Assembly: GCF_900112765.1 (NCBI RefSeq)
Contig: NZ_FOMZ01000001.1
Span: 310,001-374,000, forward strand
Length of the DNA: 64,000 nt
Direction of reading: 5' to 3'
Origin: Actinopolyspora alba
GTDB taxonomy: Bacteria > Actinomycetota > Actinomycetes > Mycobacteriales > Pseudonocardiaceae
Positions 22,076 to 62,402 of this stretch are shown here, one piece after another. A model generated the notes under the pieces. The model had not been told where the DNA came from and did no database searches. It saw only the letters and a program-made list of their open reading frames with translations. Both the position numbers and the translations under genes were made by a program. Within the stretch, counting starts at the first letter, position 1; every line of letters starts with the position of its first letter.

Positions 22076-22130
22076 CGGCGGAACCTCCCATCGGCTCCCG
22101 TTCCGGGAGCCGCGACATCGGGTAACGACC
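22076..22130 (-). repeat. Element B fragment (copy 8), rebuilt around a hairpin
   Basis: The GCGGAACCTC start and the CGACATCGGGTA-CGACC core of element B (minus orientation) are recognisable. The outer-stem region is replaced by a perfect 9-bp hairpin, CGGCTCCCG/CGGGAGCCG at 22092-22112, close behind greA. It probably acts as a greA terminator. Confidence 0.6.
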
Positions 22131-22134
22131 ATCG

Positions 22135-22156
22135 ACCGCCCCGGCGCAGGGGCGGT
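22135..22156. terminator. Second hairpin between greA and the Lrp gene
   Basis: ACCGCCCC (22135-22142) pairs with GGGGCGGT (22149-22156). It lies between convergent genes and gives a probable bidirectional stop together with the 22092-22112 hairpin. Confidence 0.6.
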
Positions 22157-22299
22157 TCACTTCGGTTCGACGGGTGCTCCCCGTCACGAATCCCTCCCGG
22201 AACACATCGCGGAGCGGCTCGCTCGCCGCACGGGCATCGGCACGTGAGCTGGTTGTCCCGCCGCGTCGCGGGAAATCTCGAGCAGCGGCCCCGGATCGG

Positions 22300-22791
22300 T
22301 CACTCGGAATCGGCCAGGCGCTCCAGCAACGGGCGCACGCGGGGAGGCACCGGTGTGGACAGTGCGATGGAAGTGGAAGTGCGCAACACACCGGTTACCG
22401 CCACCACCCGGTCGATGACGCGCTGCAGGTCGTCGTTGGACCGCGCGACCATGCGCACGAACAGATCACCCTGTCCGGTGGTGGCGTGTACTTCGCAGAC
22501 CTCGTCTATCGCGGCCAGCTGCTCGGCCACCGAACCGCGCTGCCCCTGAGCGATCTCCAGCACCGCGAACGCGGTCAGCCCGTACCCCACGGCGGCGAGA
22601 TCCAGTTCCGGTGGAAAACCGCGCAGTATGCCGTGGCGGATCATCCGGTCCATGCGGGCCTGCACCGTGCCACGCGCCACACCCAGCCGGCGGGAGCACT
22701 CCAGCACCGGCAGGCGAGGCTCGTCCGAGAGCAACAGCAGCAGGCGCGCGTCCAGCTCGTCCAGCGACTCGTCACCCGAAGTGGTGGTCAC
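22300..22791 (-). CDS. Lrp/AsnC-family regulator, probable regulator of hppD
   Basis: 163 residues from a GTG at 22791 with TTGGAG six bases upstream. The N-terminal helix-turn-helix is LDELDARLLLLLSDEPRLPVLECSRRLGVARGTVQARMDRM (residues about 8-48, cited by its ends). The C-terminal RAM domain contains TTGQGDLFVRMVARSNDDLQ. Lrp regulators of this type usually bind an amino acid and control an adjacent gene. It is divergent from hppD, and the same Lrp-hppD pairing is frequent in actinomycetes, so tyrosine or a related metabolite is a plausible effector; this is inference. Confidence 0.86.
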   Translation of the reverse strand: MTTTSGDESLDELDARLLLLLSDEPRLPVLECSRRLGVARGTVQARMDRMIRHGILRGFPPELDLAAVGYGLTAFAVLEIAQGQRGSVAEQLAAIDEVCEVHATTGQGDLFVRMVARSNDDLQRVIDRVVAVTGVLRTSTSIALSTPVPPRVRPLLERLADSE

Positions 22792-22956
22792 AGCACGCTC
22801 CAAACATGTTTCGGTGATACAGGGTGAGCAGTCGACCCCCTACCAACCGACCACGAGTCGAGCAGGTTGTACAGCCGTGAAGCCTCCTGTTGCGCAGGGT
22901 GCGCGGCACTCGCAGGCTTGCGTACGCATCGAGTTCGCAGTCAGCGGGAGGACACC

Positions 22957-24165
22957 GTGACCGAGACCGCCAACCAAAGCACCGGGACCGCCGAGCGTGA
23001 CGACGTGACGTTCGAGCAGATGAAGCAACTGGTCGGCCTGGTCCCGCACGACCCGGACCGGGACCCGTTCCCGGTCAGAGCCATGGACGCGGTCGTGTTC
23101 ATCTCGGGAAACGCAACGCAGAGCGCGGTGTTCTACCAGAGCGCGCTGGGCATGAAGCTGATCGCCTACCGGGGACCGGAAACCGGCCACCGCGACCACC
23201 GGGCCTACGTGCTCAAGTCCGGTTCGGCGCGGTTCGTGCTCAAGGGTGCGGTCGACCCCGACAGCTCACTGGCCGACCACCACCGCGAGCACGGTGACGG
23301 GGTGTGCGATCTGTCCCTGGAGGTCACCGATGTCGACAAGTGCGTGGCACACGCCCGGGAGCAGGGAGCCACCGTGCTGGAGGAGCCGACGGACGTCTCC
23401 GACGAGCACGGCACGGTGCGCTACGCATCGATAGCCACCTACGGGCAGACCAGGCACAGCCTCATCGACCGGTCGGGGTACTCCGGTCCGTACTTCCCCG
23501 GCTACGTCGCCAAGGACAGCGGGTACCGCAAACCGGAGGGAGCACCGAAACGGGTGTTCCAGGCGATCGACCACTGCGTCGGCAACGTGCCGATGGGCGA
23601 GATGGACCGGTGGGTGTCGTTCTACAACCGCGTCATGGGCTTCGTGAACATGACCGAGTTCATCGGTGACGACATCGCCACCGAGTACTCGGCGCTGATG
23701 AGCAAGGTCGTGGCCAACGGCAACCACCGGGTCAAGTTCCCGCTCAACGAACCCGCGGTCGGCAGGAAGAAATCGCAGATAGACGAGTTCCTGGAGTTCT
23801 ACGGCGGCTCGGGCTGCCAGCACATCGCGCTGGCCACCAACGACATCATCGCCAGCGTGACCGCGATGCGCGCCGCGGGAGTCGAGTTCCTCGGGGTTCC
23901 CGACTCCTACTACGACGATCCACAGCTGCGTGCCCGGATCGGTGAGGTGCGGCTGCCCATCGAAACGCTCAAGGAGCACGGGATTCTGGTGGATCGGGAC
24001 GAGGACGGCTATCTGCTGCAGATCTTCACCAAACCGATCGGGGACCGCCCGACGATGTTCTTCGAACTCATCGAACGCCACGGCTCGCTCGGGTTCGGTA
24101 TCGGCAATTTCAAGGCGCTTTTCCAGGCGATAGAGCGGGAGCAGGAACTGCGCGGCAACCTCTGA
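22957..24165 (+). CDS. hppD: 4-hydroxyphenylpyruvate dioxygenase
   Basis: 402 residues from a GTG with GGGAGG upstream. Two vicinal-oxygen-chelate domains are visible: the first from [20 protein letters not shown] to about residue 170, the second from [12 protein letters not shown], which supplies the first iron His. Other iron-site segments are [12 protein letters not shown] (second His) and [10 protein letters not shown] (Glu). The enzyme converts 4-hydroxyphenylpyruvate to homogentisate in tyrosine catabolism and pigment formation. The gene is monocistronic, with the Lrp regulator divergent. No homogentisate dioxygenase is in view. Confidence 0.95.
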
Positions 24166-60203: not shown

Positions 60204-60206
60204 GGA

Positions 60207-61493
60207 TCACACCTCCGCGCTGAACCTGGGGAAGGCCAATTCACCCGCGTAACGGGCGGCGTCGCCGAGGTTCTCCTCGATGCGCAGCAACTGGTTGTAC
60301 TTGGCCACCCGCTCGCTGCGGGCGGGAGCACCGGTCTTGATCTGGCCGCAGCCGGTGGCCACCGCGAGATCGGCGATGGTGGTGTCCTCGGTCTCGCCGG
60401 AACGGTGACTCATCATGCTGCGGTAGCCGCAGGAGTTCGCCAGGTTCACCGCGTCGAGGGTCTCGGACAACGTGCCGATCTGGTTGACCTTGACCAGCAG
60501 CGCGTTGGCCGCGCGCCGGTTGATGCCCTCCTCCAACCGCTCCGGGTTGGTCACGAACAGGTCGTCGCCGACGATCTGGACCTTCTCGCCGATCTCGGAG
60601 GTCATCCGGGTCCAGCCGTCCCAGTCGTCCTCCGAGAGCGGGTCCTCGATCGAGACCAGCGGGTAGGAGTCGAGCAGCTCGGTGTAGTAGCCGATCATCT
60701 GCTCGGCACTGCGCTTGGAGCCCTCGAACTGGTAGACGCCGTCCGAGTAGAACTCGGTCGCGGCGACGTCGAGCGCCAGCGCGACGTCCCTGCCCAGCTT
60801 GTAGCCCGCCTTGTCCACTGCGGTGGCGATCAGGTCGAGCGCCTCGCGGTTGTTGGGCAGGTCGGGTGCGAAGCCGCCCTCGTCACCGAGTCCGGTGGCC
60901 ATTCCCTTGCTCTTGAGCACCGACTTCAGCGCCTGGTAGGTCTCGGCTCCCCAGCGCAGCGCCTCGGAGAACGAGTCGGCCCCGATGGGCGCGATCATGA
61001 ACTCCTGCATGTCCACACCGGTGTCGGCGTGCGCGCCGCCGTTGAGGATGTTCATCATCGGCACCGGCAGCACGTGCGCGTTGGGGCCACCCACGTACCG
61101 GAAGAGTTCGAGCCCGGTCGACTCGGCTGCCGCCTTGGCGGTCGCCAGCGAGGCACCGAGCATCGCGTTGGCCCCCAGCCTGGACTTGGTCGGAGTGCCG
61201 TCCAGGTCGACGAGCTTCTGGTCGACCACGCGCTGTTCGATGGCCTCCACGCCGACCAGCTCCGGGCCCACCTCGTCCAGCACGCCGGCCACTGCCTTCT
61301 CCACGCCCTTGCCGCCGTAACGCTCGGCGGCACCGTCGCGCAGCTCGACGGCCTCGTGTTCGCCGGTCGATGCTCCGGAAGGAACGGCAGCGCGGGTCAG
61401 CGTGCCGTCATCCAGGGCCACCTCGACCTCGACGGTGGGGTTGCCCCGCGAGTCCAGGATCTCGCGAGCGCCGACCTGCTCGATGATCGCCAC
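60207..61493 (-). CDS. eno: Enolase
   Basis: 428 residues from a GTG with AGGAG upstream. The substrate loop [18 protein letters not shown], the magnesium-site segments [12 protein letters not shown] and [11 protein letters not shown], the catalytic Lys in [11 protein letters not shown] and the signature [17 protein letters not shown] are all intact. It converts 2-phosphoglycerate to phosphoenolpyruvate and is also part of RNA-degrading complexes in many bacteria. It is the first gene of eno-divIC-DUF501. Confidence 0.96.
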
Positions 61494-61760
61494 GTGTGCT
61501 CCTAACAAGCTTTGTGAATCCGAGACGCCACGGCCCGCCGCGATGCTTCCACCGGCGGTCCCGCCGGTGAGGGCCGGGCGCCCGACGACTGCCTCCGAGC
61601 CTAACCGGGCGCTCTGATCGTCCGCCGCAGGCTCGCGGTCAGGCTCCCGGCATGTGCGACGAAAGCGCCGATCCGAGGGATGACCACGGGAACAGAGTTG
61701 GCAACATCCGACCGAGCACTATGGCGGAACCGTCGATCGAGTCGTACCGTTGGTGTGGTA

Positions 61761-62144
61761 ATGAGGGCTGAAGGTACCGTAGAAGCTTTCCGCAAAGCGG
61801 AAACCCTTGTGTCGCAGCGACGCCCGCTGGAGGCGTTACGCGCGCTCGGTCCGGTGCTCGAAGAGGATCCGGACAAGCCGAGCGTGCAGCTGCTGGCAGG
61901 ACGCGCGTATCTGTTCTCGGCGCAGTTCCAGCGTGCCGAACTGGCGTTCCTGCGAGTCATCGAACTGGACCCGTCCGACCACTATGCCCGACTAGTACTG
62001 GGAAGAACCCTGCAACGGCAGGGCAGACTGAACGAGGCGCACACCCAGGTGCGGCTGGCCACGACCATGTACCCCGATCCCGCGTACCAGGAAGTACTTG
62101 GAGAGATCCGAGCGCACATCGCTCGGGTCAACGCGACCGAGTGA
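61761..62144 (+). CDS. Small tetratricopeptide-repeat protein
   Basis: 127 residues from the ATG at 61761; a more upstream in-frame start at 61680 is possible but lacks a ribosome site. Three TPR-like helix pairs are visible: AEGTVEAFRKAETLVSQ, PLEALRALGPVLEEDPDKPSV with AGRAYLFSAQFQRAELAFLR, and DPSDHYARLVLGRTLQRQGR. Codon 26 is a rare TTA. It probably acts as an adaptor; the partner is unknown. Divergent from eno. Confidence 0.82.
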   Translation: MRAEGTVEAFRKAETLVSQRRPLEALRALGPVLEEDPDKPSVQLLAGRAYLFSAQFQRAELAFLRVIELDPSDHYARLVLGRTLQRQGRLNEAHTQVRLATTMYPDPAYQEVLGEIRAHIARVNATE

Positions 62145-62274
62145 CGTATCCCACCACCAACAACACGACAGTCCCGCGTCGAGTAGCGCTCCACCCCGCG
62201 TCGAGCAGTGCTCCGGGAATCCCGCTGTGCCCGTCGAACGTGGGGCCCTCTCGGACGCGTCCGAGCCGAACCCC

Positions 62275-62402
62275 AACCACTTACGCAATCGGCACCGCCG
62301 CGGGTTCTCTCGTGGTGCTCTCGCGAGGACGGCCCCGACGTCGTGTAGGTCGCTACCCGATGTCGGGGCACCCACAGCGAGAGCCCGCGAGAGGTTCCGC
62401 CA
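62275..62402 (+). repeat. Element B copy 7
   Basis: Inner arms GCCCCGAC and GTCGGGGC pair perfectly, apical GTAG-GTCG-CTAC, outer arms GCTCTCGC and GCGAGAGC. It lies between the convergent TPR and transglycosylase genes, with element A copy 13 18 bases further on. Confidence 0.8.

Follow-up and report, generated by a model that had tools for sequence, protein, structure and literature searches.

The 64,000-nucleotide stretch of the Actinopolyspora alba genome analysed here (the window) carries a short dispersed repeat, element B, at eight places. The question that it raises is whether the repeat is the remnant of a mobile element or a structure kept for what its fold does.

Element B in the window

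GGCGGAACCTC is present at all eight places (22077+, 31418-, 37599-, 47037+, 54371+, 56730+, 59106- and 62401-) where the initial annotation had seen seven near-complete copies and one fragment, and an nhmmer search of the window likewise returned all eight, seven as long copies and 22077 as a fragment. All the parts described there are real: the outer and inner stems and the GTAG/CTAC cap. Together they make a single hairpin of ~112 nt. Its outer helix spans ~17 bp and its inner helix ~8 bp, the cap is of the GTAG/CTAC type, and two internal loops are conserved. The claim that copies occur only between genes holds for the whole genome, where 0/105 distinct copies lie inside a called gene (gene positions are those of a home-made gene caller).

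The left-half copy at 22077..22130 (+) follows a GreA-like gene (21542-22039, +) at 37-38 nt from its stop and belongs to a class that makes up 16 of the 105 copies (hand list). Similar distances separate the full copy at 37489..37599 (-) from the stop of a FecCD gene (37636-38673, -; 36-37 nt), the copy at 47037..47130 (+) from that of a peptidase gene (45524-47002, +; 34-35 nt), and the full copy at 58995..59106 (-), in a convergent gap, from that of a DUF501 gene (59140-59661, -; 33-34 nt). The right end of the 47037 copy is cut by another repeat, element A (ATTTCTCGCGAAAT). The full copy at 62291..62401 (-) follows an SLT_2 gene (62535-63332, -) at 133-134 nt from its stop, with an element A sitting between the two; this insert is absent in G009, G004, G005 and G008. 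Further full copies are not stop-anchored: 31308..31418 (-) is flanked by two + genes, the next of which (31643-32863) encodes a thiolase, and 54371..54481 (+) and 56730..56840 (+) are in divergent gaps, the latter according to the home-made gene calls.

The inner arms were previously said to differ between copies and yet stay paired. This is true of most copies. However, those of the 54371 copy are mostly unpaired (left CCGGCGAC, right GTCGGGCC), and this copy is a chimera of two arm types; the copies at 31418 and 59106 have one inner mismatch each, and the 47037 copy is truncated on the right.

Copy number and range

This genome and those of its relatives contain well over a hundred copies of element B. 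The pattern GGCGGAACCTCN{5,12}GGCTC has 114 genome matches versus 0 for its backwards control, and the left-end motif (the 11-mer alone) occurs 172 times versus 4; because these counts are far above the controls, element B is not a product of chance. In the genomes sampled it is confined to Pseudonocardiaceae, and the set from outside this genome comprises 74 copies, 3 from the congener G007 and 71 from other genera. Neither this family-wide range nor the stop-codon anchoring, orthologous sites and strand asymmetry described below featured in the initial annotation. No Rfam model matches element B in the window (gathering score) or at three loci (E up to 1), ruling out a known Rfam RNA, and no publication on the family was recognised in a literature search. 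In G003, 37 of 48 copies found with the pattern run with the replication fork, a count that carries no gene-strand baseline.

Fold and covariation

The covariation test proposed earlier was run on both sets. For 61 copies from this genome, the numbers of paired cells and of doubly changed cells and the covariation score each beat 500/500 shuffles, and the number of pairs changed on both sides was reached by 1/500; further pair types, reached by 60/500, were not significant. Among the 74 outside copies, 30/37 pairs change on both sides, with 453 changed cells versus 116 in shuffles, and every measure taken beat all shuffles. The sequence changes while the fold stays, and the fold itself therefore seems to matter. 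Structure is under constraint, and selection on it, as claimed at the outset, is well supported. Uncompensated arms, or a match to a MITE, had been named as evidence to the contrary; both were found in part, as arms are uncompensated (chimeric) in a minority of copies and the Saccharopolyspora rosea copies belong to a MITE with IS5-type ends.

An AAC/AAC internal loop, with AAC on both arms in the same sense and not inverted, is kept in 27/30 copies found by the covariance model alone, although the surrounding helices are rewritten. Palindrome-templated repair is thus insufficient as the sole cause of pairing, since it would not leave conserved internal loops unrepaired. By eye, one copy (L063:1494+) looks like an event of such repair.

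Copies of element B occupy orthologous sites in Actinopolyspora, and the hairpin is kept across species, in old copies even where the flanks have been remodelled. Paired arm types switch together at these sites, and in 115/150 combinations the native halves give a better fold than chimeras made across species. Much of the paired change in Actinopolyspora is switching among a few arm types, a sign of exchange between copies in addition to compensation. At the 22077 site, another hairpin can occupy the place of element B in relatives.

Placement behind stop codons

Most copies (88/105) share the orientation of the upstream gene, and 77 of these 88 begin 27-49 nt behind its stop codon. The left end is 27-50 nt from a stop in 74% of cases, versus 9% for random intergenic points and 13% for element A, ruling out random insertion as the sole cause. 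Among the 71 copies from other genera, 69 have an upstream gene and 51 of these are co-oriented with it, with 42 of those 51 at 29-55 nt behind the stop. Anchored genes show no enrichment of TNA stops (60/78 versus 264/305), so that target choice at such stops fails as the sole explanation of anchoring in Actinopolyspora.

Convergent gaps are enriched, holding 47 of the 89 copies that are not on the half-copy list, and tandem gaps, which have no adjacent opposing gene, also hold many copies. At four loci (L029, L042, L064 and L071) each of two convergent genes has a copy to itself. Copies that lie in pairs ~420 bp apart were considered as composites; in L064 the pair is instead accounted for by such convergent genes, but this is not so in L033.

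Strand asymmetry

Folding is better on the strand opposite the upstream gene in 60/61 copies from this genome and 68/74 outside copies, beyond shuffles, and the bottom strand is preferred with DNA parameters too (54/61 and 68/74). Folding of the sense strand is strong too (mean -62.4 and -60.5 kcal/mol), and mismatches in the outer helix of this strand are mostly A.C. The raw strand test gave A.C 57 versus G.U 17 in 32 arm pairs from this genome and 49 versus 2 in 56 distinct outside arm pairs, but is trusted less because copies share ancestry. Collapsed to unique pair/type events, it gave A.C 19 versus G.U 8 (p=0.05), with none in the inner and cap helices; this is borderline, and the wobble bias is not decisive. 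The flanks of copies from this genome are C-rich on the strand opposite the upstream gene, and the right flank of outside copies has no C/G bias. TTTT was found within 20 nt of the hairpin in 0/66 (top) and 0/105 (bottom) copies from this genome, and the absence of a T run on either strand rules out a canonical intrinsic terminator.

MITE ends in Saccharopolyspora rosea

The S. rosea hairpin forms the central part of a MITE of ~232 bp, whose ends and target duplication are also those of an IS5-type element. The duplications are TCA/TGA, with TCA on both sides in 5/9 B-bearing rows. Ten IS5-type genes of equal score have paired ends in 10/10 loci, and one of them belongs to Pfam DUF4096 and DDE_Tnp_1; an autonomous partner with the same ends was found in S. 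rosea only. Terminal inverted repeats reach a score of at least 11 in 5/70 copies from other genera, all five from S. rosea, and no inverted ends were detected in 66 Actinopolyspora copies, where scores show no excess over the control. The Actinopolyspora copies may nevertheless share the MITE origin. IS copies have also inserted into the stem of element B itself.

Comparison with known repeats

In S. rosea, element B resembles IS5-family MITEs in being a short element with terminal inverted repeats and a target duplication common to an IS. It differs in its deeply covarying internal hairpin, conserved loops and stop-codon anchoring, and in the undetected ends of the Actinopolyspora copies. 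BOX, RUP and SPRITE of Streptococcus pneumoniae are described as interspersed, strongly folding, over-represented between convergent genes and subject to nested insertion (PMC3049150, PMC10969869), and element B is like them in its interspersion, fold, convergent-gap excess and mutual insertion. However, the available text of those reports makes no mention of a fixed stop-codon distance or of compensatory change, and the phylum is different. REP/BIME sequences with RAYT transposases, as far as the available account goes (PMC2817692), are similar in being intergenic and palindromic with >100 copies per genome, but the hairpin of element B is much longer. The genome has one Y1_Tnp match, a 154-aa frame that is a candidate RAYT or IS200/IS605 TnpA and is not near multiple copies, and with only this match a REP/RAYT identity is unlikely. 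A neighbouring tnpB, read by eye, was also ruled out, as a long open frame is absent there.

Possible roles of the hairpin

The best reading, a tentative one, is that of a hairpin derived from a MITE, under structural constraint and retained at the 3′ ends of genes; it would act in RNA, likelier in antisense as a transcription barrier. Element B is the central part of a family of short interspersed repeats in Pseudonocardiaceae, probably mobile in origin; its S. rosea copies still lie between the ends of an IS5-type element. In Actinopolyspora, old copies, mostly behind stop codons, would have been kept by selection on the fold, with arm types exchanged between copies. The fold would most likely act in RNA at gene 3′ ends and, as the better-folding strand is that opposite the upstream gene, our best guess is that it forms a barrier at which antisense or convergent transcription is halted or processed ahead of gene entry. 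We infer both the barrier role and the action in RNA rather than in single-stranded DNA.

It is somewhat unlikely that element B is a selfish MITE only, whose hairpin serves its own movement or persistence and whose TNA insertion behind stops leaves the gene intact. An internal hairpin is not known to be required by IS5-type DDE transposases, old orthologous copies keep their fold despite remodelled flanks, and 18/78 anchored genes end in TAG, which is not a TNA. What S. rosea shows (MITE ends, TCA/TGA duplications and a partner of IS5 type) nevertheless fits it, as do the IS copies within the stem and the convergent-gap enrichment, also reported in the available text for the pneumococcal repeats (PMC3049150). 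A hairpin in the sense-strand 3′-UTR that terminates or protects the upstream gene's mRNA is unlikely: position and orientation relative to that gene, convergent genes that each have their own copy, the strong sense-strand fold and the replacement by a different hairpin at the 22077 site all agree with it, but the sense fold is the weaker one in nearly every copy, its outer-helix mismatches are mostly A.C and a T run is absent. The attC sites of integrons lie behind stop codons, depend on structure over sequence and act on the bottom strand. Element B shares these features, and its bottom-strand preference persists with DNA parameters. However, a folded single-stranded DNA site for a recombinase is very improbable, as AAC has the same sense on both arms and does not form the inverted RYYYAAC/GTTRRRY core of attC, and the sites are dispersed and syntenic, outside cassette arrays.

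Implications

Bacterial MITEs are mostly regarded as debris. In element B a single family shows mobile ends (in one species), extensive compensation between genera, conservation of the internal loops, retention at orthologous sites and a stop spacing that is almost fixed. Its hairpins supply many natural paired mutants for testing whether a selfish repeat can turn into a signal for gene ends throughout a genome. U-tract terminators are considered scarce in GC-rich actinobacteria, and element B is relevant to the way in which gene ends are defined in these organisms. Speculatively, and with considerable doubt, a mobile element may have spread a structured RNA module to many gene 3′ ends across a bacterial family, and the hosts would now use it as a common punctuation mark. 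This mark would evolve in concert, be read in antisense RNA and shield genes from opposing transcription.

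Copy number and structure of element B

Element B, a dispersed hairpin of about 112 nt, is a high-copy repeat in the A. alba genome and was present at all eight places in the window where the initial annotation had put it (left ends 22077+, 31418-, 37599-, 47037+, 54371+, 56730+, 59106- and 62401-). A two-part left-end pattern gave 114 matches in this genome (backwards control 0), and the left-end 11-mer GGCGGAACCTC gave 172 (control 4). The 105 distinct own copies analysed, drawn from the pattern places listed and the window, all carry GGCGGAACCTC and are the part of the set selected by this motif; by script, 65 are full, and the other 40 are truncated or chimeric, are interrupted by other repeats or differ in their interior.

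Read from the left, a full copy opens with GCGG-AAC-CT and an outer helix about 17 bp long. Next come an asymmetric internal loop (TGCGGG on the left, TGTCCTC or similar on the right) and an inner helix, about 8 bp long and topped by a GTAG/CTAC-type cap; the right end is AG-AAC-CCGC. That the inner arms differ yet stay paired holds for the three recurrent arm types, GCCCCGAC/GTCGGGGC, GGCCCGAC/GTCGGGCC and CCGGMGAC/GTCTCCGG, but not for a few chimeric copies, such as window copy 54371, whose inner arms do not match each other.

Several further features were recorded. Element A, a separate short palindromic repeat with core ATTTCTCGCGAAAT (310 exact genome matches, backwards control 0), occurs genome-wide and in the window at 2790, 25122-25235, 31090-31230, 44600, 47133, 56908-56999, 58849-58938 and 62419; it interrupts B at 47037 and, by eye, in the stretches L002, L021, L038 and L044 around other copies. 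G-rich arrays with a unit of about 24 nt (GNGTGGTCGGAGTTCGGCCTGCGG) often lie to the right of own copies (for example L033, L042, window 56840). Four copies (L033:1996-, L060:1515+, L064:1955- and L081:1585-) share the left end of B, but their interior is different and their outer arms resemble GTGAGTCGG/CCGACTCAC. Sites in the congeners G006 and G003 hold a hairpin of this sort, and these variants are perhaps a sister family sharing the B cap. In L063:1494+ the inner part is seemingly inverted, with the left arm apparently copied to the right across the internal loop, which looks like a palindrome event at the DNA level. The window also contains a 247-nt direct repeat (7042-7288 and 7592-7838, 91% identity) overlapping two short called genes, and a Cobalamin riboswitch (RF00174, 39761-39954, minus strand, 94.9 bits) preceding two minus-strand genes, of which the second is a FecCD transport gene.

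Covariation within and outside the genome

Of the 65 full own copies, 61 entered the covariation analysis and 4 were excluded as misaligned or rearranged. Paired cells made up 90.2% against 86.8% after shuffling, and 56 cells were doubly changed against 16.4 (neither reached in 500 shuffles), while 9 pairs had changes on both sides against 6.7 (reached in 1/500). Further pair types were not significantly enriched in these copies (21 against 19.2; 60/500).

Outside this genome, the model matched 98 times in 76 selected loci. Once cut matches, identical rows and duplicates on the opposite strand had been removed, 74 copies were left (71 from other genera, 3 from the congener G007). The arms are heavily rewritten with pairing kept: 30 of 37 pairs were changed on both sides, as were 453 cells against 116 shuffled (0/300), counts biased by an alignment fitted to the structure. 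Leaving out G007 gives 27 such pairs and 423 cells (shuffled, 111), and all 98 rows, with copies repeated on both strands, gave 32 pairs and 587 cells against 153, any slide giving at most 130. AAC/AAC was retained in 27 of 30 copies detected by the covariance model alone.

The window was also set against stretches from eight congeners. B was at all eight window sites in G009 and G005, at six in G004, at six in G003 (one of them a half), at four of the five sites placeable within the 20 kb of G008, and at some sites in G001 and G006; the 20 kb compared from G007 had no copy. Two sites had a stub or a different hairpin in relatives, and G004 has an internal deletion in B at the 47037 site. At that site both inner arms switch together between arm types (V2 in A. 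alba and G001, V3 in G003 and G008, V1 in G006), and of 150 combinations of half-swaps between species at one site, 115 folded more weakly than the native copies, so that the arms move as pairs. This reflects exchange between copies and, we infer, selection on the fold.

Range across genomes

A covariance model, as proposed in the initial annotation, was built from the own copies, and its matches extend from this genome to relatives up to family level. Under strict filters throughout, it matched in 16 of 61 relatives (scoring up to 62 places in each genome), in 78 of 297 genomes of the family, representing 15 of 46 genera (up to 12 places in each), and in a class-wide sample in the A. alba genome only (1/296). 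Nine of ten genus members, A. alba included, reached 62 scored places, and G007 had 3. Among the matches listed, the right-arm pattern occurred in Saccharopolyspora, Actinopolyspora, Halopolyspora, Sciscionella and Amycolatopsis bartoniae; three extra-family pattern matches (Geodermatophilus and two MAGs) had no model match. In the G003 chromosome the pattern GTCCTCGCGAGA was found 48 times, none of them at 1.48-3.35 Mb, opposite dnaA (chance about 6e-10 assuming uniform spread).

Position and strand asymmetry

Using gene calls from a home-made caller based on codon usage, 88 of the 105 own copies are co-oriented with the gene upstream of them; in 77 of the 88 the copy begins 27-49 nt past that gene's stop codon. 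A stop lies 27-50 nt from 74% of B left ends; the corresponding share is 9% for random intergenic points and 13% for element A. The left flank (about TTTGCGTGGCGGTGCGGGT) fills part of this spacing, leaving about a dozen bases at most between the stop and the onset of the repeat. In the window, anchoring at 34-38 nt applies to four of the eight copies; another lies at 134 nt and the remaining three are unanchored. In other genera, 69 of 71 copies have an upstream gene, 51 of the 69 are co-oriented and 42 of the 51 lie at 29-55 nt. Four loci have a convergent gene pair with one copy per gene. No common theme was found among the upstream genes.

The strand opposite the upstream gene gave the better RNA fold in 60 of 61 own and 68 of 74 other copies (65 of 71 without G007), with mean advantages of 11.2 and 7.6 kcal/mol (shuffled, 2.0 and 2.4), and the preference persists under DNA parameters. 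It arises because AAC/AAC becomes GUU/GUU and gene-strand A.C mismatches become G.U on that strand. In the outer helix, gene-strand A.C exceeded G.U by 49 to 2 in 56 distinct outside arm pairs, 57 to 17 in 32 own arm pairs and 26 to 3 as unique species/pair events; the inner and cap helices had no such bias, and unique pair/type events over all helices were only 19 to 8 (p=0.05). The opposite strand is C-rich in both flanks of own copies and in the left flank only of outside copies. We take the asymmetry to be real and to favour the antisense strand, which does not itself prove an RNA.

Mobile origin in S. rosea and proposed role

In Saccharopolyspora rosea the hairpin is flanked by ends GNGCCTGTCTTYGAAC, a motif with 336 occurrences at up to 1 mismatch (control 3). 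Among the nine rows carrying B, the length is 231-233 bp in six, and TCA borders the element at either end in five. Ends of this kind, about 945 bp apart, also enclose ten IS5-type genes that score equally (DUF4096, with DDE_Tnp_1 as well in one that was scanned). Four IS contexts with script-paired ends at 960-963 bp all show TCA/TGA duplications, and three of these copies are inserted in GAACC-TCA-GCGGC, the stem of B itself. End scores of at least 11 were obtained for 5 of 70 outside copies (0.6 expected), all from S. rosea; such ends were not detected in the other outside copies scored or in excess in 66 own copies, though to the eye weak ends may persist in a few further Saccharopolyspora copies. 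A MITE origin is evident in S. rosea and presumed elsewhere; membership among MITEs, found in S. rosea, is putative in Actinopolyspora.

A purely selfish element is a serious rival explanation, as is a role on the sense strand in the 3'-UTR. B behaves similarly to BOX/RUP/SPRITE repeats and to IS-mobilised MITEs. It is a structure-constrained hairpin kept at gene 3' ends, and its strand, place and orientation agree with a proposed role as a barrier against antisense or convergent transcription.
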